This document shows positions 5,889 to 32,247 of a stretch of DNA of 32,784 bases, in pieces; position 1 is the first letter of the stretch, and each line of letters begins with the position of its first letter. The position numbers and the translations under genes are program-made. Location of the stretch: positions 1 through 32,784 of IMG/VR virus record IMGVR_UViG_3300042392_001828; one strand, given 5' to 3'. The notes beneath the pieces were generated by a model. The model ran no database searches. It was not told the DNA's origin and saw only the letters and a list, made by a program, of their open reading frames with translations. This DNA comes from a virus.

Positions 5889-5952
5889 CGAAAAATCTTT
5901 TCTCAACCCCTTGCCATGCTATATCCGATTGGATACAGTAGGGCAGACGAGA
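5889..5952 (+). promoter_or_regulatory. promoter/operator block P3 (plus-strand copy)
   Basis: The order is A-tract AAAAATCTTTT, -35 TTGCCA (5911-5916), a 17-base spacer, and -10 TACAGT (5934-5939). The dyad TATCCGATTGGATA (5922-5935) covers the spacer and the start of the -10. A downstream GGGCAGACGA follows. The same ordered elements recur on the minus strand at 31803-31868 and 32181-32247, so this is a conserved promoter with a built-in operator. It drives the genes at 5983-7200. Confidence 0.75.
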
Positions 5953-5982
5953 ACGAAACCCAGGAACAAAGGAACCTCGACC

Positions 5983-6192
5983 ATGACTCACCGCGTCACC
6001 CGCAGCACGAAGAACGGTTGGACGAAGACTGACCGCTACACCTACACCCACGTTTCGGGCCTGCGGGTTGTCCGCAACGTCAACACGAATCGCTGGACGG
6101 TCGCCGGGGCTTCGGCCAATGACGGTGCCGAATACAAAACCCTTTGGCTTGCCATGTATGCGGCCAACAAGACCGCAGCGGAATGGGCCTGA
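5983..6192 (+). CDS. small accessory protein, 69 aa
   Basis: 69 residues (MTHRVTRSTKNGWTKTDRY...), basic at the N-terminus, with a likely beta-sheet middle (HVSGLRVVRNVNTNRWTV) and a helical end (YKTLWLAMYAANKTAAEW). No family is recognised. It is the first gene behind promoter P3. Its leader contains two GGA motifs (CCCAGGAACAAAGGAACC), the second serving as ribosome-binding site. The start at 5983 is supported by that site; an earlier in-frame start at 5911 would lie in the promoter. Confidence 0.7.
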   Translation: MTHRVTRSTKNGWTKTDRYTYTHVSGLRVVRNVNTNRWTVAGASANDGAEYKTLWLAMYAANKTAAEWA

Positions 6193-6202
6193 CCCCAGGC
6201 CA

Positions 6203-6229
6203 ACCCGCCCCGGGCTTTCCGGGGCGGGT
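6203..6229 (+). repeat. strong intergenic hairpin
   Basis: An 11-base perfect stem (ACCCGCCCCGG / CCGGGGCGGGT) with loop GCTTT lies between two small accessory genes. No U-run follows, so it is more likely an mRNA-protecting or partial-termination structure than a full terminator. Similar hairpins sit between the other small accessory genes. Confidence 0.6.
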
Positions 6230-6264
6230 CAGGATCAAACCCCAGGACGAAAGGAACCCAGCCG

Positions 6265-6456
6265 ATGAACCCCCTTGAAAGCCGTATCGCTGCCTTGACC
6301 GTTGCCCAGATCATCGACGTTCTGCGGGGCCTCGTCGCGGACACCAGCGACGAAGCCGCGAGGGTCACAACCGCTTGCCTTGCCCGCCTCTATCGGACGA
6401 TGCCCGAAGCGGAATACTGCAAGCTTTGCGACGAACTGTACGGGGCCTGGGGTTGA
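6265..6456 (+). CDS. small accessory protein, 63 aa
   Basis: 63 residues, all helical by appearance (RIAALTVAQIIDVLRGLV then EAARVTTACLARLYRTM), ending with two cysteines (YCKLC). Unrecognised. The leader reads CCCCAGGACGAAAGGAACCC before the ATG and closely resembles the leaders of the genes at 5983 and 6940, with two GGA motifs. It sits between two hairpins. Confidence 0.7.
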   Translation: MNPLESRIAALTVAQIIDVLRGLVADTSDEAARVTTACLARLYRTMPEAEYCKLCDELYGAWG

Positions 6457-6459
6457 TGA

Positions 6460-6480
6460 CCCGCGGCGCGTTGCCGCGGG
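6460..6480 (+). repeat. intergenic hairpin
   Basis: CCCGCGGC pairs with GCCGCGGG around GCGTT, just after the stop of the 63-residue gene. No U-run. It belongs to the same hairpin-then-leader pattern as its neighbours. Confidence 0.55.
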
Positions 6481-6512
6481 CTGCAGGATGACACCAAACA
6501 GAGGGACGAACG

Positions 6513-6893
6513 ATGATTGAGTCTGCACCCAACAAAACTACTTGCGTTTTCTATGTTCCGCCTTGCGATTACACAACGGACATTGAACCCGTAGCCGTCT
6601 TGGTCACAAGAGCCCACGAATCGAAGCCGAACCTTTACCGATGCAAGCGTCCCGCCAATCATTTGATGAGACGGGAAACATTTGATTGGGTTCAGGGCTC
6701 AATGCTTTTTGGCACCGAAGCCGAAGCTTGGGAGGTGATTGCTCAACGCCTTGAGCGCGTTGCCAACGATTTCCGATCCGCCGCCAACAAAGCCGCAGCA
6801 ATGCACGTCGCTTCTGTTGTCGCTGCTTGCGCCCGCAACGAATCCACCGACTGCCCCGATGCCCACACTTGCCGTCACGGTGTCGACGGTTGA
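6513..6893 (+). CDS. accessory protein of unknown function, 126 aa
   Basis: 126 residues. The N-terminal half is strand-rich (KTTCVFYVPPCDY, EPVAVLVTR). It is followed by a phrase typical of small phage proteins (GSMLFGTEAEAWEVIAQRLE) and a helical stretch. The C-terminus has several Cys/His (ACARNESTDCPDAHTCRHG) that could bind zinc. The ribosome-binding site AGAGGGACGAACG differs somewhat from the leaders of its neighbours. Unknown function. Confidence 0.65.
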   Translation: MIESAPNKTTCVFYVPPCDYTTDIEPVAVLVTRAHESKPNLYRCKRPANHLMRRETFDWVQGSMLFGTEAEAWEVIAQRLERVANDFRSAANKAAAMHVASVVAACARNESTDCPDAHTCRHGVDG

Positions 6894-6939
6894 CCCCTAG
6901 CTCGCCCTCATCGAACCCCAGGAAAAAAAGGAACCCACC

Positions 6940-7200
6940 ATGACCAACCTTGCCCAACTGACACAGCAACTCAACGAGGCCCGCGAAGAACTGAGACGCC
7001 TTGCGGCTGGCTACAGCGTTCCAGACGTCACCGCGGAGGAGGTTGTTGATTTAATCGGGTCTGCGCAAGATTTCGCGGCCTTCATGGAAGACCAAATGAA
7101 CCGCAGGTTTACCCGTTTGGGCTTGCTAGATATCGAAGATTCGGTCAACGGCTGGTTTGAGTACGCAGACAAGGTTGCCGCCCGCCGCGGGGAGGGTTGA
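6940..7200 (+). CDS. accessory protein of unknown function, 86 aa
   Basis: 86 residues, acidic, helical. A coiled-coil-like N-terminus (AQLTQQLNEAREELRRLA) is followed by AEEVVDLIGSAQDFAAFMEDQ and GWFEYADKVAA. The leader CCCCAGGAAAAAAAGGAACCC has two GGA motifs. It is the last gene of the P3 transcript and ends three bases from the convergent minus-strand gene at 7204, with no terminator between. Not recognised. Confidence 0.7.
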   Translation: MTNLAQLTQQLNEAREELRRLAAGYSVPDVTAEEVVDLIGSAQDFAAFMEDQMNRRFTRLGLLDIEDSVNGWFEYADKVAARRGEG

Positions 7201-7203
7201 TCC

Positions 7204-7545
7204 CTAGCCCGCCTGCCTGGACACATTTGGTCCAGGCTTGCACTTCTCGCAGGGGGCCCCCTTCGCTGCCTTGCACCCGCAGGAAGCCGGGCACGGGCAC
7301 GGCTCGACAACCCGCCCGTTGGGAATCCCCCCGGAGCCTCCGCATTTGCACCCTACGGGGCATTTGCCCACGGGGGGATTCGGGGCAGGGGCGGGGGGCT
7401 TCGGCCCCGGAGCGGGGCTATCCGGGGCCATGGCAGCATATGCCGCGATGACTGCGGCTTGGCAGCGGGCATCCTCAACCGCAACCGCGGAGGGATCGGC
7501 GGACAGGGACGCGAGGAGGGCGATTAGGGAGCGGTAGAGCGTCAT
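7204..7545 (-). CDS. cysteine-rich, possibly secreted small protein
   Basis: 113 residues. The N-terminus MTLYRSLIALLASLSADPSA resembles a signal peptide. It is followed by a Pro/Ala linker (PAPGPKPPAPAPNPP) and a C-terminal domain with paired cysteines (GKCPVGCKCGG, EPCPCPASCGCK, APCEKCKPG). The pattern suggests a zinc-bound or disulphide-linked knot. I chose the start at 7545 by the ATGA overlap with the tiny membrane gene upstream; a longer frame to 7791 exists but is a shadow. It is the last gene of the lysis/envelope block. Confidence 0.65.
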   Translation of the reverse strand: MTLYRSLIALLASLSADPSAVAVEDARCQAAVIAAYAAMAPDSPAPGPKPPAPAPNPPVGKCPVGCKCGGSGGIPNGRVVEPCPCPASCGCKAAKGAPCEKCKPGPNVSRQAG

Positions 7546-7625
7546 CGCGGCCCCGTTTCGTCTTTGTCCGTAAACCAAATGCCTAGCAGAACCGATGCCA
7601 CAACAATGAAAACGAAGACCAGCAT
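7542..7625 (-). CDS. 27-residue membrane peptide
   Basis: One hydrophobic helix (MLVFVFIVVASVLLGIWF) plus a short charged tail (TDKDETGPR). It is supported by ATGA overlaps at both ends and by GGAGGG seven bases ahead of the ATG. The size and topology suit a membrane peptide of a lysis block, such as a small holin or antiholin-like protein, but nothing proves that role. Confidence 0.55.
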   Translation of the reverse strand: MLVFVFIVVASVLLGIWFTDKDETGPR

Positions 7626-7933
7626 CACCAGCCCTCCCGATGGTTGAGGACTCGATGCCCCGCAGAATCCACCGCGGGGGCCTGGACGATGCCATGCCGC
7701 CCTTCTGGCTCCCGCTGCGGGTGGAGGACCGATTGGGCAACCGGGGACTCCTCCCCAGCCAGCGCGACGAACAGCCCCCACCGCGCGGCAAGCGCCGTGA
7801 GCTTGGCTAGCCCGCGGAGGACGGGGCGCGCGGGGATCGGCTCTGGCCTCACCGGGGACGCTGGGGACGATGCCAGCCACCAGCCGAAAGCGACCGCGAG
7901 AAGGAACGCAACATACGGGGGGCGCGTCGGCAT
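7625..7933 (-). CDS. small membrane-anchored protein, 102 aa
   Basis: An N-terminal hydrophobic segment (YVAFLLAVAFGWWLASS) is followed by a Pro-rich linker and a helical region (AKLTALAARWGLFVALAG), then a polar tail. The topology suggests an inner-membrane anchor with a periplasmic domain, as in spanin-like or holin-accessory proteins. Identity is not established. It is tightly coupled to the protease gene upstream (four-base gap) and the 27-residue gene downstream. Confidence 0.6.
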   Translation of the reverse strand: MPTRPPYVAFLLAVAFGWWLASSPASPVRPEPIPARPVLRGLAKLTALAARWGLFVALAGEESPVAQSVLHPQREPEGRHGIVQAPAVDSAGHRVLNHREGW

Positions 7934-7937
7934 CGTT

Positions 7938-9044
7938 TCACCTCACCAGGGATTCAACGGGAAGGATCGGGGCAGGCTCAAACCATGCCCCGTGATCGAT
8001 GGGAACTGGCTCCCAGTTGTCCGAAGTCGAAAAGCTCCAAGAGTCTCCCGCAGCCAAGACCGCTTCGGCATCGGCGCGGCTTATCCAAAACGACCCGTCC
8101 GGTTGATCGGGCGGATATTTTGCGCCCCCCTGGGGAGGCCATGCGCCAGACCATGAGTTAAGAACCAAAACCCCGTCGCGCGGGCTTCCGTTCTTCTGCC
8201 ATCTCAACCCCGCTAGGCACATCTGGTGGGGCCACGTTCCGTTCCGCGGGATGAATCCATGGGCATCTCTGGCGCTGGCCTGGAATCCAACGTTAGACGC
8301 AATCGTCATCGGGAACCCAGCCGAGAGCGATTGGACAAGCTCATCCCAGGTCGTGACCCGCGAACATTTCTTGATCGGATGCCGCTTGGCTTCGCCGTCG
8401 AACTTCCCGTTATCGCCGCGCCCACCGTTGCCCCAATTCCCCCACTCCTTTTCGAGCGCCTGCCCGCGGGTCAGATCGAGGCCGAACTCTGGGTATTCGC
8501 GCTGATAGATCACGCCCCAATCCCGCAGCCATTTCGCGGCATGGAATCCGGTTGATCCATCGGAGTAGCCCCCCGCTCCTTCGGGCCTGCCCCTAGCCTC
8601 CACGCGCGACCCGCCATAAATGCTGGGAGTAGATGGACGGTAAGGAACGTCGCCCATGAGCCCCGCATCCCATGCGAGGCTTTCCGCGAGGAAGACCGCG
8701 TGTTGCGCACCGTGGGCTACGCAACTTCCGATAGCACCCTGATTGGAAACCTCAAACGGTTTTCCGTATCTCTTGCGGGATGCTTTATCCGCTGCGCGCC
8801 AAAGGAAAACATCCTCGCCAACGGGAACCGCCATCGCTTGCGGCGCGGCGCTAGCAAAGAACCCTTCGCGCCCCATGGAGCGGACGAAGGCATCCGCGCC
8901 GTTTCGATCATCGACCCAGCCCGTAGCCTTCTCGAGGCGCGCCGCAACGCGGTGGGTTGCCCGCTCAACGAGCGTCCCGAGAATCGCCATCGCAACTACG
9001 AAAGCGACGGCAGACCATGACCAAGCGCGTTGCCTAACGGTCAT
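7938..9044 (-). CDS. papain-like (C1 family) cysteine peptidase, membrane-anchored
   Basis: 368 residues. An N-terminal hydrophobic helix (AVAFVVAMAILGTLV, residues 12-26) is a signal anchor. The catalytic domain has the papain order: oxyanion Gln102 and Cys108 in NQGAIGSCVA, His273 in WPHQMCLAG, and Asn296 in LNSWSG. All four key residues are present, so it should be active. The ribosome-binding site GGGAGGTAATGGC is excellent. It sits among small membrane proteins downstream of the tail genes, so it may act in lysis, on the envelope, or on host surface proteins. Phage papain-like enzymes are not classic endolysins, and the substrate is unknown. Confidence 0.8.
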   Translation of the reverse strand: MTVRQRAWSWSAVAFVVAMAILGTLVERATHRVAARLEKATGWVDDRNGADAFVRSMGREGFFASAAPQAMAVPVGEDVFLWRAADKASRKRYGKPFEVSNQGAIGSCVAHGAQHAVFLAESLAWDAGLMGDVPYRPSTPSIYGGSRVEARGRPEGAGGYSDGSTGFHAAKWLRDWGVIYQREYPEFGLDLTRGQALEKEWGNWGNGGRGDNGKFDGEAKRHPIKKCSRVTTWDELVQSLSAGFPMTIASNVGFQASARDAHGFIPRNGTWPHQMCLAGLRWQKNGSPRDGVLVLNSWSGAWPPQGGAKYPPDQPDGSFWISRADAEAVLAAGDSWSFSTSDNWEPVPIDHGAWFEPAPILPVESLVR

Positions 9045-9048
9045 GCCA

Positions 9049-9663
9049 TTACCTCCCAGCCGCGCGGGCTGCGGCTTTGGAAATGTCTTGGAACGCGCGA
9101 ACCCAGTTCATTCGCTCCGCGGCATCGACGGGCCCGCCATCGGTCCCAACGGCAGCATCGAGGAACGCGGCAATCCGATCCTTGGCTAGCGGTTGCTTCG
9201 CTCCGAGCGTGATTCCTTGCATGCGGAAGTCGCGCGCGTTCTTTCGGAGATCATCGAACTCCGCTGCGGTTGTCAGTCGCGGCGAGGATTGCTTGCCATC
9301 CCAGGCCACGGCATCGGCCAAGCCGAGCAACAACCTTTCCGTTGTCGTGGCATCGGCCTGGGCATCGGGCCCAACGAAAGCCCCGCGGAGATCGAGCGCG
9401 GGCCAGTTGTCGGGAGCGGGGGCGGGGGCTGGAGGGACCGGGGCAGGATTGGCGCTAGAGAGATACGCAGCCGCAAGCAGACACCACGGCAACAGAATTG
9501 CCGCAATGAGGAGCGGCGACGTTCCGCCGCTCGACTGCGGCGCAGGAAGCGACGGCAGCGGGGCAGGGGAGAACGAAGGGATTGCGGTGGGATGCTCTGA
9601 CCGCGACTGCCAAACCAGATACGCCACGGCAGCGCCCGCAAACAACCAAGGAAGCGAAATCAC
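9049..9663 (-). CDS. membrane-anchored Pro-rich protein, 204 aa
   Basis: It starts GTG at 9663 (MISLPWLFAGAAVAYLV), with CCGGAGG upstream and a GTGA overlap with the previous gene. A longer frame to 9846 lacks these features. An N-terminal transmembrane helix is followed by a Pro/Ser linker, a second hydrophobic stretch (LLIAAILLPWCLLAAAYLSS) and another Pro-rich linker. A soluble helical C-terminal domain (TTERLLLGLADAVAW, VRAFQDISKAAARAAG) follows. This suggests two membrane passes and a domain on one side, compatible with an envelope or lysis role. Not recognised. Confidence 0.65.
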   Translation of the reverse strand: MISLPWLFAGAAVAYLVWQSRSEHPTAIPSFSPAPLPSLPAPQSSGGTSPLLIAAILLPWCLLAAAYLSSANPAPVPPAPAPAPDNWPALDLRGAFVGPDAQADATTTERLLLGLADAVAWDGKQSSPRLTTAAEFDDLRKNARDFRMQGITLGAKQPLAKDRIAAFLDAAVGTDGGPVDAAERMNWVRAFQDISKAAARAAGR

Positions 9664-10028
9664 TTCGCGGCCTCCGGGGCCTGGGCCCGCGTGATGGATA
9701 GGATTTGCTCCAAAGCCCCGGAGGCTGCGGCGAGAACGAGGATGCGAATTGCGGGCTTGGTCACAAGCCAAAACGGCTGGAGATAGAAAGGCACCGCGTA
9801 GCCCGCGACGTTGTCGAAGAGGACCGCGACGATGGAAAGCGCCCAAGCCTTTTTGGCCGCGCCATCCGTTGGCACAGAGTCCAGGCCAACAACGAGAAGA
9901 CGAAGCAACTCGACAACGAGCGCCCCGAACTCCGCGACGGTTAGCCCGCCCTGTGCTTTCGCCCTTGCGTCAGCGAGAAACTTTGACGCAAGGGAAACGA
10001 TTCTCTGTTCCGGCAATTCGTCTGCCAC
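9660..10028 (-). CDS. small protein with hydrophobic helices, holin candidate
   Basis: 122 residues from a GTG at 10028 (MADELPEQRIVSL), just after the stop of the previous gene. Helical segments EFGALVVELLRLLVVGL, ALSIVAVLFDNVAGYAVPF and IRILVLAAASGALEQIL are moderately hydrophobic, and two or three could cross the membrane. The position just before other membrane proteins suits a holin-type role, but the amphipathic character makes this uncertain. Confidence 0.6.
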   Translation of the reverse strand: MADELPEQRIVSLASKFLADARAKAQGGLTVAEFGALVVELLRLLVVGLDSVPTDGAAKKAWALSIVAVLFDNVAGYAVPFYLQPFWLVTKPAIRILVLAAASGALEQILSITRAQAPEAAK

Positions 10029-10029
10029 G

Positions 10030-10542
10030 TTAGTACCCCGCGGGTCCGGTGATTGCGGTTCCACAAACCATGAGCGAATAGGAAACCATCCCCGTCGTTC
10101 CCGTTGCGGTCAGCTTGACCGTCGATTCCGTTGACGAAGCGGGCCAAGCGTGGGTCTGCTGGACCGCGAGAAGTTCGCCGCCTGGGCCAACGTCACCCGC
10201 GACCCGCCCCCAGCCGTTTGAGGTTCCAGGCCCGACGATGATTCGCGGGCCCGTGACGGTTTCGTTGTTCTGCAACCGGAACAAACGAACTTGCCGCATC
10301 GTCTGCGTCTGCGTTACCCCGAACGTCGGTCCCGTGAGGTTGAGCAGATCGAGCGTAACGCTCGACCCGCCAGTAACCGACCCGGAGGAAAACCAGATTT
10401 GATCGGAGAGAGGACCGAGGACATTGTCCAGCGAATAGCTTCCCGACTTTGAAACGCTAGAGACGTTCGTGCCCAACGTCTGAACGTCGGAGCGCGAAAC
10501 GTCAACCTGGGTTTTGATCGATCCCGAAAATGTGTCGGGCAT
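10030..10542 (-). CDS. beta-rich protein of unknown function, 170 aa
   Basis: 170 residues, Ser/Thr/Gly-rich with alternating hydrophobic residues (SVTLDLLNLTGPTFGVTQTQ, MRQVRLFRLQNNETVTG, STVKLTATGTTGMVSYSLMV). It reads like a beta-sandwich domain of the type found in tail or decoration proteins. The start is MPDTFSGSIK. It is followed closely by the holin-like gene. Likely virion-associated by composition and context; no family is recognised. Confidence 0.6.
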   Translation of the reverse strand: MPDTFSGSIKTQVDVSRSDVQTLGTNVSSVSKSGSYSLDNVLGPLSDQIWFSSGSVTGGSSVTLDLLNLTGPTFGVTQTQTMRQVRLFRLQNNETVTGPRIIVGPGTSNGWGRVAGDVGPGGELLAVQQTHAWPASSTESTVKLTATGTTGMVSYSLMVCGTAITGPAGY

Positions 10543-10551
10543 GGCAACCTC

Positions 10552-10779
10552 CTACGGGATCAACCCCAGGTCTATCGCTCGCTTGACTGCCGCGACCGTC
10601 TCCCCGATCTGGTAGGCAATCAGTTCGATTTGGCGCTGCGTGTAAGCGGGCCGCGATGTGATCTTGCCCCACGTTTCGGTAGTGCTAACGCGGTTTGCCA
10701 ACGGCAAAGCCGATCCCGAGGGCGGGAGAGATTCCCGACCCCCGCCACCGTGCCGCCAATGCGTGGGCCGCGCGATCAT
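10552..10779 (-). CDS. small protein of unknown function, 75 aa
   Basis: 75 residues. The N-terminal third is basic and glycine-rich, with poor coding quality (MIARPTHWRHGGGGRE). The C-terminal half is convincing (AYTQRQIELIAYQIGETVAAVKRAIDLGLIP) and looks like a short helical/HTH unit. The true start may be internal, and no good ribosome-binding site precedes the ATG at 10779. A repeated 14-base element lies 33 bases upstream. Confidence 0.45.
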   Translation of the reverse strand: MIARPTHWRHGGGGRESLPPSGSALPLANRVSTTETWGKITSRPAYTQRQIELIAYQIGETVAAVKRAIDLGLIP

Positions 10780-10809
10780 GCGACCAGACTACGGGCTATC
10801 ACGCCGACC

Positions 10810-11448: not shown

Positions 11449-11492
11449 TGTCTCGCCTCCGTTGCTTCTTCTTCGGTATAGGGTTCGTTCAT
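11232..11492 (-). CDS. small overlapping gene of unknown function, 86 aa
   Basis: It begins MNEPYTEEEATEARQWANRH at an ATG coupled to the stop of the metallophosphoesterase gene (ATGA at 11489-11492). It reads well for ~50 residues (TAARMIGRLLKERQ then LLLLMI). The remainder is basic and looks like the shadow of the DUF5664-like gene in the other frame. The two genes overlap by more than 200 bases, so one may be shorter or one may be spurious. Confidence 0.45.
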   Translation of the reverse strand: MNEPYTEEEATEARQWANRHGPSNGWTATGGTAARMIGRLLKERQLLLLMISRQSHRARVKGSIGFCAGRQSLRRRRNRGPVSLTR

Positions 11493-20470: not shown

Positions 20471-20917
20471 TCACCCCTGGAAGGAAGGGTAGCTCACGGT
20501 GATAGCCGCGCGCCAGACGTTGCGGTCGTTCAGCGCGTCATCCGGGTTGACTTCGCAATTGACCGAAAGCGGGGAGCCGATGCCGTTGGGGAAATCGACC
20601 GACTCATCCCATTGGTGGGCATAGAGGAGATCGACAAGGGTTTCCGCCATGTCCGAAATCTCCGTTAGCTCCGCGTCCGTTTCGACCCGCTGGGCGATGA
20701 AAACATAGATGGTGTAATTCTTGCGGATGCCGTTCGACCGATGAATCCGGGTTGGATCAAAGCCCCCTGGGGTAACGATGATCGCGGGGGAGCCTAGGTC
20801 TTCAACGTCTTTTTGCACCCAGTTCATCCGCTCAACCGTCGTGCCAGCAATCGGCCAAGTTTCTGCGACCAGCGCAGCGGCGACGGAATCCGCGAGGGTT
20901 TGTAGATTCGCGCTCAT
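20471..20917 (-). CDS. tail terminator-like protein, 148 aa
   Basis: 148 residues. It has a helical N-terminus (LQTLADSVAAALVAETW), central strands (PAIIVTPGG, KNYTIYVFIAQRV), a helix (EISDMAETLVDLLYA) and a last strand (NVWRAAITVSYPS). This order is that of phage tail terminator or minor-tail gpU-like proteins. Its start overlaps the glycosyltransferase stop (ATGA), so structural and glycan genes are co-translated here. Confidence 0.6.
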   Translation of the reverse strand: MSANLQTLADSVAAALVAETWPIAGTTVERMNWVQKDVEDLGSPAIIVTPGGFDPTRIHRSNGIRKNYTIYVFIAQRVETDAELTEISDMAETLVDLLYAHQWDESVDFPNGIGSPLSVNCEVNPDDALNDRNVWRAAITVSYPSFQG

Positions 20918-21975
20918 ACAACTGGCTCCGCGGTTCCGGCCTCGACTCGTTCCATCGCGGCAACGTTGGCCGCAATTCGCTGGTCATCTGGCAATCGTGC
21001 CAGAGCTTCGCGGGCCAGCGCTAGGGCCTCTGGTACGTTTCCTAGGTTCCAACAAGCAACGGAGGCGAGATCGTAACCCCGTCCGCGGGAGTCTGGATCG
21101 GTGGCATGGGTCGCGGGCCCGCTGGCATCGATAGCCTTTCGGGCAAACTCCAGGCAGGGTTCCCATTCTTGGAGATGGTAGGAGCGCAGCGCGGATAGCT
21201 CCCAGCCGTCCGGTTCCTGCGGCGCTTCTCTGACCGCTGCCCGCAGATGGTTTTCGTCCTGGGTCAACCGCCAGAGTTGCCGCCGCGCGTAGGCTCGCTC
21301 CGAATAGTTTCCGCCCTTCATCGAGAGATAGCGGGCAAACTCCGCGGGGGCGCGAGGGTCGCCCTTGTAGCCCATTTCGCGGGCCAGATACCAACGGGCG
21401 CGGGCATCGTGCGGCGCTTCCTTGACCGCGATTTCCAATAGGAATAGGTCGCTCTGGTGACTCTTCCCAGGGTCGCGGTGGTGGACAATCTCCAGGCCCT
21501 CCGCAAACCGCATGACCTTTTCTCCGGTCCAGCACATCAGCCCCTCATGGGTCGCCTGCGACCAGCGGAAGCCCGCGCGGGAATGGACTCGGTCGCAATT
21601 GAAAACCATCCCCGGAGAACCATCGGGGCGGAAGCTCCACACATAGCGGTAGGTCAGGCAGTTGACCGTATCATCCCAGGCCCGTTCGATGGCATCCCGC
21701 CAACCGGGTTGAAGGCGCTCGTCTAGGTCAAGGCGAATAGCAACGTCGATGTTGCTTGGCAGATGATGAAGGGAAAGATTGTGCGCGTCATCCCAGCGCC
21801 ACGGCACTACGTTGCCATGCACAACCGTCACCCCGCTTTCCTCGAGCGCGGCTACCGTACCATCTTCGGAGCCCGTATCAGTGACAACACGGCAATCAGC
21901 ATCGCGGCATGATTCCGCCCAGGCTTTCGCGTGTTTCTCTTCGTTGCGCGAGAGCGCGTAGATTCCGACTCTCAT
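20914..21975 (-). CDS. family-2 glycosyltransferase with C-terminal TPR-like repeats
   Basis: 353 residues. A GT-A fold starts with MRVGIYALSRNEEKHAKAW. The donor-binding region is VVTDTGSEDGT and the metal-binding DxD motif is RLDLDERL. An acceptor-side stretch follows (VWSFRPDGSPGMVFNCDRVH, then ATHEGLMCW). From about residue 190 there are helical pairs with TPR rhythm (DARARWYLAREMGY, EWEPCLEFARKAID, NVPEALALAREALARLPDD). The start at 21975 overlaps the methyltransferase stop (ATGA). It probably adds a sugar to a phage fibre/capsid protein or a host surface glycan. The acceptor is unknown. Confidence 0.8.
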   Translation of the reverse strand: MRVGIYALSRNEEKHAKAWAESCRDADCRVVTDTGSEDGTVAALEESGVTVVHGNVVPWRWDDAHNLSLHHLPSNIDVAIRLDLDERLQPGWRDAIERAWDDTVNCLTYRYVWSFRPDGSPGMVFNCDRVHSRAGFRWSQATHEGLMCWTGEKVMRFAEGLEIVHHRDPGKSHQSDLFLLEIAVKEAPHDARARWYLAREMGYKGDPRAPAEFARYLSMKGGNYSERAYARRQLWRLTQDENHLRAAVREAPQEPDGWELSALRSYHLQEWEPCLEFARKAIDASGPATHATDPDSRGRGYDLASVACWNLGNVPEALALAREALARLPDDQRIAANVAAMERVEAGTAEPVV

Positions 21976-22583
21976 TCGTCCACCTTTTCGATGATGCCTA
22001 GGCGGCGCAAGCCGTCCTCGACGAAACGGACTTGCCGCCCGTGGGCCTCGCAGAAACGAGTTACTGCAAGCTCCACCGATGGGTTGTCGCAATCGTCCGC
22101 GAGGATCACGGGGCAATCCGCGACCAGTGCCAGATCGGAAAAGCAACCCGCGTCCGAATGATCCCCGTCAACGTGCGCGAACTTCGCCCCGTCTGGCAGA
22201 CGATAGATCGAATGGGAGTTGGCTACGATCAACCGGGCATCGATGGCTTGCGTCTTCATCATCGCGCGGAACCATGGAATGGTTTTGTGGGAATCGTCAT
22301 CCAATCCGCCGTCGATGCAAACCGCGGAGAAGACTGCTCCGATGTGATCCGCGCCCGTTGCGAAGGCCAGCATTGAATACCCCGCGCGGCTTCCGATCTC
22401 CAGCATCGGGCAGATTTGGCGACCGTAGGACTTCGCCGCGGCGAGAGCAATTGACGCCTTCCATGCGTAGTGCATCGCAACGCGGTCATCGAGTTTGAAC
22501 CAATCAAGCGGCATCCATCGCGCGGCAAGAACCCTTCGCACATCTGCAATTAACACTTCATCGGGCGGAATCAGTGCGATCAT
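21972..22583 (-). CDS. class I SAM-dependent methyltransferase (Methyltransf_24 type)
   Basis: 203 residues. The SAM-binding glycine loop is PMLEIGSRAGYSMLAF and motif II is VCIDGGLDDD. The motif AHVDGDHSDAGCFSDL is characteristic of Methyltransf_24 proteins, which often methylate sugars. ILADDCDNPSVELAV follows. The start at 22583 has GGAG about 11 bases upstream and overlaps the previous gene by 26 bases. Its place between a glycosyltransferase and a glycosidase-like protein suggests glycan methylation. Confidence 0.75.
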   Translation of the reverse strand: MIALIPPDEVLIADVRRVLAARWMPLDWFKLDDRVAMHYAWKASIALAAAKSYGRQICPMLEIGSRAGYSMLAFATGADHIGAVFSAVCIDGGLDDDSHKTIPWFRAMMKTQAIDARLIVANSHSIYRLPDGAKFAHVDGDHSDAGCFSDLALVADCPVILADDCDNPSVELAVTRFCEAHGRQVRFVEDGLRRLGIIEKVDE

Positions 22584-25739: not shown

Positions 25740-25742
25740 TGG

Positions 25743-26625: not shown

Positions 26626-26656
26626 GCGGAGCGGGTGGATTCACCACCCGCCCCGC
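26626..26656 (-). repeat. strong hairpin after the major capsid gene
   Basis: A 13-base stem (CCACCCGCCCCGC against GCGGAGCGGGTGG, one G-U pair) with loop ATTCA lies in the 88-base gap between capsid and cement genes. There is no U-run. It may protect capsid mRNA or partly terminate transcription, giving more capsid mRNA than downstream message. Confidence 0.55.
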
Positions 26657-26671
26657 TGCGGATTACTGCGT

Positions 26672-28600
26672 TCAGGAAACCGCCAAGCGGAGGGTCGAGA
26701 GCGGTTCAGACTTGGAAACTCCAAAGTCCATATATCCGCGGATACTTACCCCAAGCTTGTCAGCATCGGGCATGACGTTCTCAATCGTCGGCGTTTGCTG
26801 CCCGTTGAGGAACACCACATCCATCGCGGAGAGATCGGCGGCATCGGCCATGAGGAACCAAGTCGTTGCCGAAGTGAGATAGTTGCTCACCACAACGTCG
26901 TACCGACCGCGAAGAACATTGTTCGACGGGGCCCGGCTGGCAGCGTTACCGACACCGTCCGCGATGAGAAGCGAACTCGTCATCAGCTCCGCAGCGGTGA
27001 TCTCCAGTTCCGGCGGAACGAGGAGGATACGCGGAGCGATCCCGAGCGGGTTGCCATCGGGATCGGTCAACTTTCGGAACGCGGTCGCGGCAGTCTTCAA
27101 CGAAGACAGCGAGAGCGCGTTACCAGCCGCAGCCGTGACCGACTGATAATAGCTGGCATTGCTCGCAAGGAACTCCGCCCAAATCGTCTCGTTGAGGGCG
27201 AGAGCGCTTCCTCGACCCATCCGCTGCGGGATAGCCGAAAGAGCGTTCAAGTCATCGTTGTAGAGATCGGCTCTTGTAATCTGGCTCATGACCCCCCACG
27301 TTTCCGCGGAGAGGCTGCGCTTGTAGTCGGTCGCGTTGGCGGTTTTCAGTTCGCCACCGTTACCAACCTTCTTGAACTTGAAATCGCCATTCAACCGGAA
27401 CAGGTTGATAGCCTTGAAGTCGTTGACCGAACGAACCGCGCTGATGCGCTGCCAAGCGTTCTCGACAGAGTTGAACCCCTGGAGGAGAAACTTGTTGACC
27501 ACCGCGGAGAGGAGGTCAGCGATCTGGTGCGAAGCGAAAGCCGCCTGGATGATGAGCGGCAAGCTCCGGTCGTTGACCCTCGCGCTTCCCGTGTATCCGT
27601 TGGCCCGCGCGGCCTGGACGAACACTTCGGAAAGCGAGAGATCACGCCGGTTCTTGTCCGCGGCTTCCAGGGTCTTCGCGTCGTAATGCTTCTCCACACC
27701 GTGGAGGCCAGCATTGACGCAAAGCGCGGCCTCGATCACCGATGCCGAAGGCATGGAAGCCTCGACAACGTGGATCGCGGGACCGGCGGGACGCTGGGCC
27801 CGGGCCTCCAGCAACTTAGCGGTTGCGGCCTGGGCCTCCAGCAATTGCCCCAGACGCTCGTTCTGCGCGGCAAGTTCCGCCCGCAGTTCGTTCAGCGAAG
27901 CGGGGTTGCCGTCGCTGACGCTCGCGCCATCCCCGCCCTTGGCCTGGACGATGGGAGCCTTGTTATCCGCAGCGCCGTTCGCCGCGGCTTCCACCGATAC
28001 GGTGGGCTTGGGGTTCGTGGCGTCGTGCGCCATATCGAGGCCCTTCATCGCTTCCGCAGCGATCGCGGCAGACGTAGCGGGGTCTGCGCCCATCAAGACA
28101 ACTGAAACCTCCCGCAGCTTGGCGCTGCGGACTACGGAGATCGGGCCCACGAAGTCGCGCCCGTTGACGGCAACTTTCTGGCCCGCGGCAAAGTTCTCAA
28201 TTCGCCCGGGGTCTGCCCCGATGCTGGCCTGGAACTTCATTCCCTTTTTGGCGAGTTGGAGAACGCGCTCCGCGATGGGAGACGTTCCGAAGATTTCGCC
28301 GGACAACGTCAGTTGTCGCCCGTCGTTATTGAGCATTGACGATTGGCCCAGGATCGCATCGAGGGAGGTGTCATGCCCCCAAAGGATCGGAACGCTATGG
28401 CTCGCCTCAAGTCCGTTGAGATCGACAACGAGCGGACTGCGCGACCATGATTGGCGGATAGCCGCGCCGGTATAGCCAACCATTTGAAACGTTGGCGTTC
28501 TCTCGAGTCCGCTTTCCATTGCGGAAAGCTCGATCTCCGCGGAGAGCGCAAGAACGTTGACCTTCGCGGCCTGGGCATCGGTAGCGTTTCGGTCGCTCAT
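26672..28600 (-). CDS. fused prohead protease - major capsid protein (Mu gpT-like)
   Basis: 642 residues. Residues 1-180 form an HK97-type prohead serine protease with His76 (ILWGHDTS) and Ser126 (KFQASIGAD). An Ala/Gly-rich linker and a coiled coil at ~233-270 (LNELRAELAAQNERLGQLLE) serve as a scaffold-like delta region. From about 290 the capsid domain follows. Its conserved phrases resemble Mu gpT-type capsids: FKAINLFRLNGDFKFKKVG, MSQITRADLYNDDLNALS, QRMGRGSALALNETIWAEFL and MDVVFLNGQQTPTIE. Protease, scaffold and shell are thus on one chain, and self-cleavage would release the shell protein. ATGA overlap with the portal gene. Confidence 0.9.
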   Translation of the reverse strand: MSDRNATDAQAAKVNVLALSAEIELSAMESGLERTPTFQMVGYTGAAIRQSWSRSPLVVDLNGLEASHSVPILWGHDTSLDAILGQSSMLNNDGRQLTLSGEIFGTSPIAERVLQLAKKGMKFQASIGADPGRIENFAAGQKVAVNGRDFVGPISVVRSAKLREVSVVLMGADPATSAAIAAEAMKGLDMAHDATNPKPTVSVEAAANGAADNKAPIVQAKGGDGASVSDGNPASLNELRAELAAQNERLGQLLEAQAATAKLLEARAQRPAGPAIHVVEASMPSASVIEAALCVNAGLHGVEKHYDAKTLEAADKNRRDLSLSEVFVQAARANGYTGSARVNDRSLPLIIQAAFASHQIADLLSAVVNKFLLQGFNSVENAWQRISAVRSVNDFKAINLFRLNGDFKFKKVGNGGELKTANATDYKRSLSAETWGVMSQITRADLYNDDLNALSAIPQRMGRGSALALNETIWAEFLASNASYYQSVTAAAGNALSLSSLKTAATAFRKLTDPDGNPLGIAPRILLVPPELEITAAELMTSSLLIADGVGNAASRAPSNNVLRGRYDVVVSNYLTSATTWFLMADAADLSAMDVVFLNGQQTPTIENVMPDADKLGVSIRGYMDFGVSKSEPLSTLRLAVS

Positions 28601-30051
28601 GCTTCGGCCTCGTCTTCCGCGTCTTGGGTTTGGGTTTCTTGGTAGGTCGCTTCCGGTTGGAGATCGACCATCAAATTGAGATCACGCATGAGCGCGATTT
28701 CTTTTGCCCGCTGCGCCAACTCGACTTGCCAATCCTTGCCCTGCTTCCCGTACTCATGGGCAAGCGTTGTCGTGTGGGTGCGGAGGCGCGTCTCTTGCGC
28801 GTTGGCTTCCTTCGATGGGTCAACGTGCTCGCGCCCATCCCAGGCCCATTCCCAATCCCATTCGGAGATTGGCGGCATCCCCCCGGGGATAAGACCAAGC
28901 GGAATGGCTTCGTCGCACCATGCAAGGAAAATGCGGTCGAGCGCGGTATGCCGCAGGTCATCGCGCTCCGTGCGGATCATCTCATGGTAAAGGGCATGAT
29001 CCATCCGACCCGAAGCGTAGTTGTAGCCCGACGAATCAAGCGCGGTCATGTTGTACGGCAACCCAACGGATCGCCCGATCTCGTTGAGGATTTCGCGCTT
29101 GAACATCGAATACGTTGACGTTGGCTGTTCCGCCTTGAGTTGCGAAATGTCATAGCCGCTGGGGAGCGTGACGATGGAACGCTTCTGAATGTCCATACTC
29201 TGGAACGCGCCGCCGTCAACCTCGTCCACTTCCGCCGCTGGGGAGTTGGTATGGAGGAACGCGGCAAAGTCCGCAGCGGTTTCGGCTGCGGCAATCACGG
29301 CATCGGTGAAGCGGCGCATCGAGCCAAAGAGGCGAAGCGCGGGGGCGACTTCCGAAAGACCGCGATGCTGCGCGGGGCGGATTTGCTTGAACCAATGGAT
29401 GACGTATTTCGCTTCGATGCGGTCGAAGTCGAAATTGGAAATCATGTAGTTGGAACCGGGATGATATTTCAGCCGCTTGTAGGCGACCACATTCCCGTAC
29501 TCGTCAAACTCCAGACCGTCAACAATCGACCCTTCGGGGGTCGTGTTGGGAATGTAGAGGCCAATCGGGGTGGCGATCATTTCCGCCTCGATCAAGCGGA
29601 GATCAAGCTGGACCCCGTCAAGGGTTGGATTCGTGACGAACTGCGCGAAGGCTTCGCCGTCGATCAACCGCGATTGGCGCATCGTTCGCAACTTGGCCGC
29701 GAGTTTGATTCGATGCCCCCAGCGCGAGAAGGCCCGCTCAACGGCGCGGTCTGCCTCTTGGTTCCCGGTCTGAATCTGGAGGCGCGGGCCCGTGCCGATA
29801 AGATCGGAGGCGAGGGTTTCGGTGATCCCCGCCAGATACGAATTGTTCAGACGTTCGTATCGGGCGCGGTTGCGGATTCGTTGCCGCTTGACCGCGGTTA
29901 GCGCGCCGTCGAGGGAGTACCAATCCGCGTTGGCCCAATGGGCAGAATCGTCGGACTGCTCCGCGATATCGATGCGCGCCCTGACCCGCTGCGGCTGGGG
30001 GGCCTGCGGCGGGGCCTGGGGGACGCGGCGGAAGAGATCGAGGAATCCCAT
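28597..30051 (-). CDS. portal protein (lambda family)
   Basis: 484 residues. Signature stretches of the lambda-type portal family (PF05136) are present: ARYERLNNSYLAGITETLAS, DLIGTGPRLQ, RQSRLIDGEAFAQFV, SNFDFDRIEAKYVIHWFKQ, RPAQHRGLSEVAPAL and GLPYNMTALDSSGYNYASGR. The C-terminus is acidic and disordered. Twelve copies form the ring through which DNA enters the head. It begins with no gap after the small head protein (TAG directly followed by ATG). Confidence 0.95.
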   Translation of the reverse strand: MGFLDLFRRVPQAPPQAPQPQRVRARIDIAEQSDDSAHWANADWYSLDGALTAVKRQRIRNRARYERLNNSYLAGITETLASDLIGTGPRLQIQTGNQEADRAVERAFSRWGHRIKLAAKLRTMRQSRLIDGEAFAQFVTNPTLDGVQLDLRLIEAEMIATPIGLYIPNTTPEGSIVDGLEFDEYGNVVAYKRLKYHPGSNYMISNFDFDRIEAKYVIHWFKQIRPAQHRGLSEVAPALRLFGSMRRFTDAVIAAAETAADFAAFLHTNSPAAEVDEVDGGAFQSMDIQKRSIVTLPSGYDISQLKAEQPTSTYSMFKREILNEIGRSVGLPYNMTALDSSGYNYASGRMDHALYHEMIRTERDDLRHTALDRIFLAWCDEAIPLGLIPGGMPPISEWDWEWAWDGREHVDPSKEANAQETRLRTHTTTLAHEYGKQGKDWQVELAQRAKEIALMRDLNLMVDLQPEATYQETQTQDAEDEAEA

Positions 30052-30249
30052 CTAGATCGTCCCCCCGGGCTTGAGGGACGAAATACGGAGCCCACGATAG
30101 ACGGTCTTCGCCGCAGCCTTTGCGGCAAGGTATTGATCCGCCGCGATTTGATCCGCGAGGGAATGCGCCTCCGCTTCGCCTGCGTCAGTGCGCACGCGCT
30201 TGGGAGCTTGGGCCGCGGCTTGGAGTGCGTCGGATACTTCGTCTGCCAT
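30052..30249 (-). CDS. small head protein upstream of portal (gpW position)
   Basis: 65 residues: VSDALQAAAQAPKRVRTDAG, then HSLADQIAADQYLAAKAAAK and TVYRGLRISSLKPGG. Lambda has gpW at this spot, and similar 60-70-residue proteins with an IAADxYLA phrase and RGLR end are common before portals. Homology to gpW itself is not evident, so I call it by position only. A terminator and the third copy of the 14-base element lie just upstream, so it is the first gene of the head transcript. Confidence 0.65.
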   Translation of the reverse strand: MADEVSDALQAAAQAPKRVRTDAGEAEAHSLADQIAADQYLAAKAAAKTVYRGLRISSLKPGGTI

Positions 30250-30282
30250 GCCCTAAACGGTATGGCAACGCGCGGGAATCCT

Positions 30283-30296
30283 AGAGGGGGTCTGGC
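30283..30296 (-). repeat. 14-base element, copy C
   Basis: Identical AGAGGGGGTCTGGC, downstream of the bidirectional terminator and 34 bases before the first gene of the head cluster. With the other copies before the tail and lysis clusters, it is a candidate late promoter or control element. Confidence 0.6.
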
Positions 30297-30305
30297 ATCA
30301 AAGAG

Positions 30306-30340
30306 AAAGGCCCGGGGGCATCGCTGCGCCCCGGGCCTTT
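30306..30340. terminator. bidirectional terminator between accessory genes and head operon
   Basis: A 12-base stem AAAGGCCCGGGG / CCCCGGGCCTTT with an 11-base loop works on either strand, with T/C-rich flanks on the minus strand (CCTTTCTCTTTG). It separates the small accessory genes at 30367-32150 from the head genes. The head operon therefore needs its own start signal downstream. Confidence 0.75.
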
Positions 30341-30366
30341 AGTGCCGACCGTGGAGGGAGGCTAGG

Positions 30367-30624
30367 TCAGTCAATCGCGGGATTGGTAAAGAAGGCAACG
30401 TAAGCGCCGCCGCCCGTTACCCTGCCGATCCAATTCCCGGTTGCCGTGTCCTTGACCCTCGCCCCCGAAAACCCTGGAACGAGCGCGAGGACCGTAGCGC
30501 GCCAAATATCATCCGCCCCCTTCCGCGGGGCAGTGACCGGGCTACCGATCCCCGACAAGAGTTGCCACGAATCGCGGGCAGGATCGTAGAGGAAGATTGG
30601 GGGGCGCTTGGATGGTTCAGCCAT
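30367..30624 (-). CDS. small accessory protein, 85 aa
   Basis: 85 residues, strand-rich (PPIFLYDPARDSWQLLSGIG, WRATVLALVPG, NWIGRVTGGGAYVAFF). The leader reads ACAACCAAAGGAACCCATT before the ATG and matches the A-rich AAAGGAACC leaders of the other accessory genes on both arms. It is the last gene before the terminator. No family recognised. Confidence 0.65.
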   Translation of the reverse strand: MAEPSKRPPIFLYDPARDSWQLLSGIGSPVTAPRKGADDIWRATVLALVPGFSGARVKDTATGNWIGRVTGGGAYVAFFTNPAID

Positions 30625-30657
30625 AATGGGTTCCTTTGGTTGTGGTGTTGCCAGAGC

Positions 30658-31185
30658 CTAGCCGTTGATGTTTTCCCCGCTGGCATTGAGAACGTACCAG
30701 GGGCGACCGGGGTAGTTCTGCTCCGCGTAATCGTTCGCGGCATCGTCTCCCGCAGCGGAGAAGGTTTCCAAAACCTCAAAACCGCCCGTGGATTCAATCA
30801 CAAAAGCGACTTTGTAGATTCGCTCAACGCGACCCAAAAACGCTTTGCCCTGAAAAAACCAATGCCCTAGTTCGTCTCTTTCGTAATCGGCTGCGTCATT
30901 GGCTTCCCACTTTTCGGATGTGAAGGCCGGTCCCGGGGAGTTGTGGGTAGCGGTGAACGTCATCACATCGACGGTTTCGCGGTTGGTGGTGATTCGATGG
31001 GTTGGGCGAAAACTTGCGGTCGTCGTCCTGTCTCCTTGCGCTGGCGTTCCGCAGCAAGCGCAGCGCCCGCTTTCGCATGGGCCAAGGGTTGCCTCCGCGG
31101 AATCAATCGCGGGGCTATCGCACTCCACGCAGCCTGGGCAGTACGCGGAACCGTCAAGCCAATACCAATCGGTCTTTGCGGTCAT
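30658..31185 (-). CDS. accessory protein with N-terminal Cys cluster, 175 aa
   Basis: It starts MTAKTDWYWLDGSAYCPGC at 31185, with GAGGAGAAAAGACG before it; an upstream alternative start is less likely. Cysteines in YCPGCVEC and GRCACCGTP suggest a small zinc-binding region in the first ~50 residues. The rest is mixed (VDVMTFTATHNSPG, VERIYKVAFVIESTGGFEVL, DYAEQNYPGRPWYVLNASG). Not recognised. Upstream, GTATACT at about 31238-31244 is a possible isolated -10, without the full promoter block. Confidence 0.6.
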   Translation of the reverse strand: MTAKTDWYWLDGSAYCPGCVECDSPAIDSAEATLGPCESGRCACCGTPAQGDRTTTASFRPTHRITTNRETVDVMTFTATHNSPGPAFTSEKWEANDAADYERDELGHWFFQGKAFLGRVERIYKVAFVIESTGGFEVLETFSAAGDDAANDYAEQNYPGRPWYVLNASGENING

Positions 31186-31254
31186 CGTCTTTTCTCCTCG
31201 TTGGTGTCCTCGCTCCCCAGGCAACGCGCCGGGGGAGTATACGGTTGGGGCGGG

Positions 31255-31458
31255 TCAGCAATCCCACATTGCGTTGAACAGGTCGATAGCGGCAACAGCC
31301 GTTTTGGAAGCCGCAGGAAGGATGGATTCGTCTTGGTTTGCCAGCCATTGCGCGATGTAGGCAAGTCCAATCATTTTGCAGATTTCATTTTTCAGGCAGA
31401 TTCGGTACTCCCTGCCAACTGCCTTGTTTGCGGCTTGGGCAAGTTTTTCAGCGTTCAT
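31255..31458 (-). CDS. small accessory protein, 67 aa
   Basis: 67 residues, helical (AEKLAQAANKAVGREYRICL, MIGLAYIAQWLANQD, ASKTAVAAIDLFNAMW). The leader CTAGGAACAAAGGAACCGCG has two GGA motifs, nearly the same as that of the plus-strand gene at 5983. A strong hairpin lies just upstream. Function unknown. Confidence 0.65.
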   Translation of the reverse strand: MNAEKLAQAANKAVGREYRICLKNEICKMIGLAYIAQWLANQDESILPAASKTAVAAIDLFNAMWDC

Positions 31459-31489
31459 CGTCGCGGTTCCTTTGTTCCTAGTGGCTGGG

Positions 31490-31515
31490 CCCCGGGGGCG
31501 AAATTGCCCCCGGGG
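31490..31515 (-). repeat. intergenic hairpin
   Basis: A 10-base stem CCCCGGGGGC / GCCCCCGGGG with loop GAAATT lies between two small accessory genes. It is one of the hairpin-then-leader units of this arm. Confidence 0.6.
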
Positions 31516-31524
31516 GGGTAGGGG

Positions 31525-31773
31525 TCAAGCTCCGATGTAGTGGTAGTAGCCGCGGCTTCCGACAACCCAGGTTTCCTTGCCCTGCTGGTCGTTAGCCTGA
31601 ATCATTTCGTGCCCGCCGTAGTAGAAGTCCATCCCCGCAGCGATCTCGTTCGCGGTCTGCTCGTTGTCGCAGACGATGGGACGAAGGGGGTACTTCCAGC
31701 CGCGGGGGTCTTCGAGAACTTTGAGAACATCCTGAACGAACTGGCTGGGGGTGGTGATCGTGCTAGCGTTCAT
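31525..31773 (-). CDS. small accessory protein, 82 aa
   Basis: 82 residues: helical start (TPSQFVQDVLKVLEDPRGW), then YPLRPIVCDNEQTANEIAAG and GMDFYYGGHEMIQ, with an aromatic end (GSRGYYHYIG). I believe similar small proteins with an xYYHYxGA end occur in other phages, but no function is known to me. Promoter P1 lies just upstream, and the leader CCAAACAAAGGAACG fits the shared pattern. Confidence 0.65.
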   Translation of the reverse strand: MNASTITTPSQFVQDVLKVLEDPRGWKYPLRPIVCDNEQTANEIAAGMDFYYGGHEMIQANDQQGKETWVVGSRGYYHYIGA

Positions 31774-31802
31774 CGTTTCGTTCCTTTGTTTGGGTTGTCC
31801 GT

Positions 31803-31868
31803 CCGTCTCTGCCCAAAGTATACAGTCGGATATTGTGGGGTCAAGGGGTGAGGAAAAGATTTTTTCGG
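31803..31868 (-). promoter_or_regulatory. promoter/operator block P1 (minus-strand copy)
   Basis: Read on the minus strand: AAAAAATCTTTT, then -35 TTGACC (31844-31839), a 16-base spacer, and -10 TATACT (31822-31817), with the dyad-like TATCCGACTGTATA across the spacer and -10. GGGCAGAGACGG follows. It matches P2 and P3 element by element and drives the 82-residue gene and probably those downstream to the terminator. Confidence 0.75.
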
Positions 31869-31873
31869 GGGAG

Positions 31874-31901
31874 CCCCCGGAGGCCAGATTGCCTCCGGGG
31901 G
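31874..31901 (-). repeat. intergenic hairpin upstream of P1
   Basis: An 11-base stem CCCCCGGAGGC / GCCTCCGGGGG with loop CAGATT lies after the stop of the 79-residue gene and before P1. It may end or protect the transcript from P2. Confidence 0.6.
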
Positions 31902-31910
31902 GGGAGGGGG

Positions 31911-32150
31911 TCAGACAATCGAAACCTTGCGGCGGAAGTTGCCGTGGAGGTTGTCCAGAGCTTCGGAGTCAATCTCCCCGTTGAGCGTCACGCAATCCCA
32001 GCGGATGACCGCGGCAACCGTTTCGATGGTTGCCACAACCGGGCCAAAGTTCTTGAGCCCGTAGCCAAACAGGATCGAGGTGTCGATCTTGCTCAAGTCG
32101 GCATCGCTGCGGGCAATCTTCAAAGCGGCGGAAAGTTCGTTGCGGGTCAT
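31911..32150 (-). CDS. small accessory protein, 79 aa
   Basis: 79 residues: MTRNELSAALKIARSDADLS, then KNFGPVVATIETVAAVIRWD and EALDNLHGNFRRKVSIV. Mostly helical, no domain recognised. Its own promoter (P2) and leader (CACCAACCAAAGGAAACC) suggest that it is an independently expressed accessory gene rather than part of the terminase transcript. Confidence 0.65.
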   Translation of the reverse strand: MTRNELSAALKIARSDADLSKIDTSILFGYGLKNFGPVVATIETVAAVIRWDCVTLNGEIDSEALDNLHGNFRRKVSIV

Positions 32151-32180
32151 GATCTGGTTTCCTTTGGTTGGTGTCCCGTT

Positions 32181-32247
32181 CGTCTCTGCCCCCTGTTGTA
32201 TCCAATCGGATAATGTGGGTCAAGGGCTTGAGCAAAGATTTTTTTCT
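32181..32247 (-). promoter_or_regulatory. promoter/operator block P2 (minus-strand copy)
   Basis: Read on the minus strand: AAAAAAATCTTT, -35 TTGACC (32223-32218), a 17-base spacer, -10 TACAAC (32200-32195). The dyad TATCCGATTGGATA, identical to that in P3, overlaps the spacer and the start of the -10. GGGCAGAGACGA follows. It drives the 79-residue gene at 31911. Confidence 0.75.

Follow-up and report, generated by a model that had tools for sequence, protein, structure and literature searches.

The virus record IMGVR_UViG_3300042392_001828 (positions 1 to 32,784; this whole stretch of 32,784 nucleotides is referred to as the window) carries three copies of one promoter/operator block, P1, P2 and P3, each located in front of small genes. 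P1-P3 are likely to form one dispersed phage regulon, in which the phage's own winged helix-turn-helix (HTH) protein of 69 amino acids (aa) would bind a palindrome in the promoter spacer and most likely block RNA polymerase. Its best reading is Aca-like: early accessory genes, dispersed over the genome and probably with anti-defence roles, would be under common control. Four features that are present in the sequences carry this reading, namely the promoter/operator frame itself, the retention of this frame by other phages, its linkage to one HTH protein family, and the joint change of the palindromes in the regulator's own promoter and in the target promoters.

Promoter frame and palindrome

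The blocks were first described in a sequence-only reading as three ordered sets of the same elements, and every one of these elements is present in its place, including the exact inverted repeat TATCC-N4-GGATA in P2 and P3. The strongest inverted repeat of the whole window is formed by P3 against P2 (53 nt, 81%). The pattern TATCCGAYTGNATA is matched exactly three times in the record, at 5922-5935 on the plus strand and at 31819-31832 and 32199-32212 on the minus strand, and the reversed pattern, used as a control, has zero matches in the 32.8-kb record. A position matrix was derived from 25 promoters that belong to other phages, with the window copies excluded; the blocks reach the scores listed below with it, and the best unrelated site in the window reaches 1.0 bits. 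P1, P2 and P3 are thus the sole copies in the record, and their recurrence is far above chance.

5891..5955, plus strand: P3 promoter/operator block (inverted repeat, exact matches, 52.4 bits), with A-tract 5891-5900, -35 TTGCCA 5911-5916, operator TATCCGATTGGATA 5922-5935 and -10 TACAGT 5934-5939
31803..31868, minus strand: P1 promoter/operator block (exact matches, 21.5 bits), with -35 TTGACC 31844-31839, operator TATCCGACTGTATA 31832-31819, -10 TATACT 31822-31817 and a 16-bp spacer
32181..32247, minus strand: P2 promoter/operator block (inverted repeat, exact matches, 48.4 bits), with -35 TTGACC 32223-32218, operator TATCCGATTGGATA 32212-32199 and -10 TACAAC 32200-32195
3391..3449, no strand assigned: separate operator pair of another kind than P1-P3 (TTTCTAAGG..CCTAGAAA), located between divergently oriented genes

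The dyad of P1 is imperfect (TATCCGACTGTATA), and its spacer is 16 bp long, compared to 17 bp in P2 and P3. The dyad had been proposed to cover the -10 region, which holds for its final TA, shared with the -10 hexamers TACAGT (P3) and TACAAC (P2), but the rest of it lies mostly in the spacer between -35 and -10. The proposed distinction between this dyad and the operators at 3391-3449 stands, as the latter read TTTCTAAGG..CCTAGAAA.

The same frame is found in other phages, where the motif recurs in dozens of uncultivated virus contigs. It consists, in this order, of an A-tract (often AAAAATCTTTT), a C, the -35 element TTGMC, a 17-bp spacer (16 in P1) and the -10 element TACARTR. The 14-bp palindrome TATCCGAYYGGATA sits inside the 17-bp spacer, and its last TA is the start of the -10 element. 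The frame TTGAC-N6-TATCCGAYTGGATACARTR is common to 25 non-redundant promoters, in which the palindrome is the best conserved portion. The relatives G005 and G006 carry such promoters at the same place in the genome as P1 and P2. Genomes of bacteria and archaea, 257 Gb in total, contain just 11 matches to the pattern, which is close to the chance expectation (estimated at about 7); six of the 11 matches are promoters of HI1419/HI1420 toxin-antitoxin operons, and the remainder look like chance. This rarity indicates that the motif is not a general host promoter. The strict leader pattern TATCCGATYGGATACANTNGGNCAGA is matched in two contigs only, so the leader is less conserved than the operator.

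Linkage to an HTH gene and co-change of the palindromes

In an all-against-all comparison, the product of 5366-5575 is the single small protein common to even distant motif-bearing phages, and it is very probably the cognate regulator of P1-P3, as judged from the sequence comparisons described in this section. The sequence-only reading had proposed a dispersed regulon with its own regulator; this is well supported and separate from the XRE-type lysogeny operator, and a protein with an HTH_17 domain can now be named as that regulator. The genes concerned are the following:

5366..5575, plus strand: winged HTH regulator (HTH_17, Xis/MerR-like), 69 aa, candidate for P1-P3; alternative start ATG 5375
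4449..5318, plus strand: tyrosine integrase, immediately upstream of the HTH gene (phrog_1, E=7e-21)
3979..4242, minus strand: XRE (HTH_3/HTH_31) repressor, the rival regulator

The Pfam match of the 69-aa product to HTH_17 has an E-value of 3e-4. Its AlphaFold2 model (mean predicted local distance difference test score, pLDDT, 87) has the order strand-helix-helix-strand-strand-helix, i.e. a winged HTH. The best structural matches are BldC (Z 7.1) and Xis of the mycobacteriophage Pukovnik (Z 6.7), followed by MerR-type regulators and lambda Xis; these matches are moderate, with Z of 5-7 overall and of about 5-6 for the MerR members. Among plausible relatives, a PDB profile search with the protein returned only Pukovnik Xis, as a weak match (E=0.14). 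No relatives of the HTH protein were found in 50,697 deposited phage genomes, and the system therefore had little chance of being noticed.

The HTH family is present in 18 of the 21 motif-bearing virus records, and the other three are fragments of 15, 7 and 9 kb. An independent scan with the HTH alignment alone gave 80 loci, 56 of them distinct when the window is included. Around the HTH gene, 40 palindrome sites are found in 47 kb, compared to 23 sites in 478 kb elsewhere. A nearby palindrome is present at 18 loci. The permuted half-sites used as controls average 0.18, and the highest of them is as large as the observed count, most likely as the sampled permutations include the true half-site. 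In the commonest arrangement in relatives, a degenerate copy lies at about -33 in the HTH gene's own promoter and a perfect copy directly after the HTH gene; in many relatives, the perfect palindrome with a -35 element is located about 190-260 nt past the HTH start. In other subclades, TTGCC replaces TATCC in the palindrome, with the spacer register unchanged.

The sequence-only reading had named the conservation of the genes without the promoter elements as an outcome that would speak against it. The promoter frame is kept, 70-85 nt upstream, in every one of the nine homologs, two for the P1 gene (L170, L171) and seven for the P2 gene (L172-L178), and where the dyad differs among them, another dyad-like element occupies the same position; the reading thus withstood this check. 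These target palindromes read TTGCCGATCGGATA (L172-L174), ACTACCGATAGGTA (L175), CCTAGTATTCCGATAGCGGTATACTAGG (L176, L178), TATGTCCGATACCGGATATA (L177) and TACTAACGATAACGATAGTA (L171). A matching palindrome is found in the own promoter of the local HTH gene in L171, L175, L178 and L180. In L171, the own site is CTAACG-N4-CGTTAG and the target site CTAACG-N4-CGATAG; in L178, they are TTCCGACGTCGGTA and TTCCGATATCGGTA, respectively. Five specificity classes can be distinguished in the more distant phages. With a single phage taken per class, the true own-target pairing is reached by 0.86% of pairings, the lowest possible value being 0.83%, and it ranks essentially first among all 120. At the sequence level, this co-change is the behaviour of a regulator and operators that evolve together. 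Duplication of promoters within a phage could explain part of it, although the likeness of own and target sites would still have to be maintained.

Proposed mode of action and alternative explanations

The following course of events is proposed. The winged HTH protein encoded at 5366-5575, probably as a dimer, would bind the 14-bp palindrome in the 17-bp spacer, where near-consensus -35 and -10 elements flank it, so that RNA polymerase would most likely be blocked. In a new infection, in which there is no HTH protein yet, the promoters would fire at once and the small accessory genes would be expressed, probably as anti-defence or host-takeover factors. The HTH protein would then build up, in many relatives from a promoter with a weaker copy of the site, and the accumulated protein would shut off the accessory promoters. 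Binding, repression rather than activation, and timing are what we infer from the sequences. An early burst followed by shut-off fits the architecture, i.e. a near-consensus promoter with an internal operator and, in relatives, an autoregulated regulator, at least as well as the expression in lysogeny that had been suggested before.

Repression by the HTH protein is considered likely with good confidence, and the main alternative in this respect is that the protein is a MerR-like activator working from the spacer, for example in a lysogen. The MerR/BldC-like fold is in line with activation, as is the location of the dyad in the spacer, which is also seen in MerR promoters. However, MerR-activated promoters have spacers of 19-20 bp, whereas those of P1-P3 are 17 bp (16 in P1) with good -35 and -10 hexamers, and the model of the 69-aa protein is without the MerR-type dimerisation helix. 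A protein bound to the dyad of such a promoter should therefore block the polymerase instead of rescuing a poor promoter, and activation is unlikely.

The regulator could also be the XRE repressor of the phage (3979-4242), which would place P1-P3 in the regulon of the lysogeny repressor. In favour of this, proteins of the XRE type bind palindromes that cover promoters, there is a weak match (E=0.0008) between the window XRE and the HI1420 antitoxin, and exactly the palindrome of the phage promoters is found at the same promoter position in the HI1420-type operons of six genomes. Nevertheless, HTH_3 is present in only four of the 21 motif-bearing records, the sites adjoining the XRE gene form a different palindrome, and the motif is concentrated near the HTH_17 gene, with which it also changes. 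In addition, the recognition helices differ when judged by eye (SEVSVYA in the window protein, GRESLYK in HI1420). Control by the XRE repressor is thus improbable. An HI1420-type antitoxin as the phage regulator was also considered and rejected, as a model search of the window gave the weak XRE match only.

It is likewise doubtful that the HTH protein acts mainly as an excisionase, with the dyads as sites of a recombination directionality factor (RDF) that overlap promoters incidentally. The HTH gene directly follows the integrase gene in the window, and the fold matches Pukovnik Xis and lambda Xis, but the sites lie up to 26 kb away, ahead of genes and nearly always in the same -35/-10 register. 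The HTH protein may have a double role, as Cox of phage P2 does. Finally, a generic strong host promoter that was acquired repeatedly, with a palindrome that has no regulator, would account for the near-consensus -35 and -10 and the UP-like A-tract, but this is highly improbable and was rejected after the genome scan, given the near-chance number of matches, six of them toxin-antitoxin operators, and given that the palindrome is the best conserved part and is swapped for another palindrome in other phages.

Several observations weigh against a regulon under the control of the HTH protein. The HTH_17 score of the window protein is below the Pfam cut-off (21 vs 27 bits), and the SRALAYR subclade of its relatives (12 of the 56 loci) is without such a site nearby. 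Neither in the window nor in the sister phage G004 is an operator recognisable in the promoter of the HTH gene itself, and in the window the gene follows the integrase gene, with which it may be co-transcribed. Since the motif-bearing phages share ancestry, inherited linkage may account for some of the co-occurrence. The XRE-type HI1420 antitoxin operons of six bacterial genomes carry the same palindrome, and the sequence of the site alone therefore cannot name the regulator. As for the proposed function of the targets, no gene behind P1-P3 in the window matches a known anti-defence family.

Accessory genes and relation to known systems

Across phages, the promoter is constant and the downstream genes vary. 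Behind 79 promoters, 188 called genes are found in 60 clusters, and these are mostly short and of no known family. Pfam matches with E below 0.003 among 55 representatives are ArdA, GP88, LPD29, DUF551 and one HTH_17 protein. Three ArdA antirestriction genes occur in 60 records, nearly all of which carry the HTH gene, and each of the three copies either is preceded by such a palindrome or comes second behind the main operator. In G004, the first gene behind the P3 equivalent encodes LPD29, a polyvalent-protein domain for which counter-defence roles have been proposed. Regarding the anti-defence content suggested in the sequence-only reading, the association of ArdA and LPD29 with this promoter type in relatives speaks for it, and the window genes themselves add no match; it is marginally favoured, by analogy with these relatives, that many target genes are anti-defence genes, and for the window's own P1-P3 genes such a role is guilt by association. 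In L029 (4767-5378, minus strand) and L165 (near 361-990), the first gene behind a strong operator encodes a longer protein with a C-terminal HTH_17 domain, possibly a bifunctional effector-regulator, seen in one phage group.

In the window, the cassettes and the structures next to them are as follows:

5855..5880, plus strand: terminator-like hairpin and T-run that separates P3 from the int-HTH operon (fold -9.9 kcal/mol, then TTTTTCGCTTT)
5983..6192, plus strand: P3 cassette gene 1, 69 aa
6265..6456, plus strand: P3 cassette gene 2, 63 aa; its homologs (36-41%) in L093, L096 and L099 also come second behind the operator
6513..6893, plus strand: P3 cassette gene 3, 126 aa, no known family
6940..7200, plus strand: additional gene downstream of P3, 86 aa; has the AAAGGAAC leader too
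31255..31458, minus strand: P1 cassette gene 2, 67 aa
31525..31773, minus strand: P1 cassette gene 1, 82 aa; homologs in L016/L170 (99%), L171 (82%) and L096 (63%)
31911..32150, minus strand: P2 cassette gene, 79 aa; the promoter frame also precedes each of its seven homologs (67-70%)

The homologs of P1 gene 1 in L016/L170, L171 and L096 are each located downstream of a promoter of the P1-P3 type. No relative of the first P3 gene (5983..6192) was found in viral contigs, and no named relatives were found for the P1-P3 genes of the window. A single operator beside the HTH gene of L096 is followed by homologs of both the P1 gene (63%) and the second P3 gene (36%); the window therefore appears to split one ancestral type of cassette over its two arms. 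The cassettes had been described as set apart by terminators or hairpins. This applies to P3, where the terminator-like hairpin lies between the block and the upstream int-HTH-orf operon (4449-5856), and to P1, which has a strong GC hairpin upstream (-26.8 kcal/mol), and the structure ahead of P2 is weaker (-13.0 kcal/mol). P1 and P2, both on the minus strand, lie in the interval bounded by the end of the terminase frame and by the portal gene (28597-30051), which is a typical location for morons; the large terminase subunit was assigned by reading the sequence, and similarity to relatives was found.

Other features of the window were observed as well. A complete tRNA-Arg (ACG) gene at 4294-4367 (minus strand), between the XRE and integrase genes, is a possible attachment site or phage tRNA. 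A ferritin-like protein gene (PF00210, E=5e-13) at 3446-3982 (plus strand), unusual at such a position in a phage, faces the early operon across the operators at 3391-3449. A single reading frame of 642 aa at 26672-28600 (minus strand) holds a fusion of head protease and major capsid domains, and a beta-1,4-glycosyltransferase-like gene (phrog_13126, 3e-71) is located at 20914-22146 (minus strand) inside the tail gene region.

Known acr-aca promoters have an inverted repeat within the core of a strong acr promoter (PMC9410906). The likeness to Aca regulators consists of a small phage HTH protein, a conserved inverted repeat located within the core of a strong promoter, variable small genes downstream and, in many relatives, a site in the regulator's own promoter, the control itself being presumed here. 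In contrast, the phage sites described here are dispersed over the genome and the protein is Xis/MerR-like. Aca genes usually lie downstream of acr genes in the operon, whereas in relatives the gene of the HTH protein lies ahead of the target cassette and is served by a promoter of its own; the system is therefore Aca-like, not Aca. No acr families were seen among the downstream genes with Pfam and PHROGs, in which the coverage of Acr proteins is poor.

In archaeal viruses, many small early genes at separate places share a strong regulatory sequence that is associated with the winged HTH protein Aca8 (PMC11065993). With the same strong sequence before many small unrelated genes and a winged HTH protein as the presumed repressor, this logic seems even closer by analogy than that of Aca, but those viruses are unrelated and have TATA/BRE promoters, whereas bacterial -35/-10 promoters with a palindromic operator are found here. 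Relative to the Aca and Aca8 logic, the system differs in the regulator family, the position of the regulator and the bacterial promoter. The start-associated sequences (SAS) and the ESAS repeats of cluster K mycobacteriophages (PMC3203893) are dispersed conserved elements, some with inverted repeats, before a subset of small genes. SAS differ in that they sit at translation starts, and here there is a promoter with a dyad in its spacer and a candidate regulator. The small genes of the window share a start-associated leader, AGGAACAAAGGAACC..ATG, at 5952-5986, 6234-6268, 6910-6940 and 31455-31479, which recalls these cluster K sequences.

The HI1419/HI1420 operators have the same palindrome (TATCCGATYGGATA) at the same promoter position, but the regulator there is an XRE antitoxin, and no toxin family of the HI1419 type or any other was found among the P1-P3 genes. 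The operons concerned, in the unrelated bacterial genomes L022, L024, L025, L026, L027 and L028, carry TATCCGATNGGATA in the -35/-10 spacer in the phage register, and convergence or exchange are both possible. With the MerR family, the winged HTH domain is shared (Z about 5-6, moderate), but the C-terminal dimerisation helix or effector domain and the 19-20-bp spacer are absent, as the 69-aa protein has no long C-terminal helix and the spacers are 17 bp. With Xis and other RDF proteins, both the fold and the location of a small winged HTH gene beside the integrase gene (4449-5318 and 5366-5575) are shared. The role proposed here on the basis of the sequences, regulation of multiple promoters through a palindrome, would differ from those of both Xis and MerR/BldC.

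Taken at its broadest, the proposal is that a clade of uncultivated phages has a dispersed anti-defence regulon under winged HTH repressors of the Xis/MerR-like kind that form a family not described before, that operator and regulator diversified in step to give at least five specificities, and that the promoter-operator marks dozens of gene families of no known kind, here about 60 clusters, many of them coding for new anti-defence proteins; this wider proposal is about as likely as not. An anonymous repeat in the window becomes a named regulator-operator pair, and the five classes of matched HTH-operator pairs form a natural data set on how the specificity of winged HTH proteins changes. If the proposal is true, the operator would serve as a sequence bait for accessory, probably anti-defence, genes throughout the genomes of these phages and not just beside the regulator.

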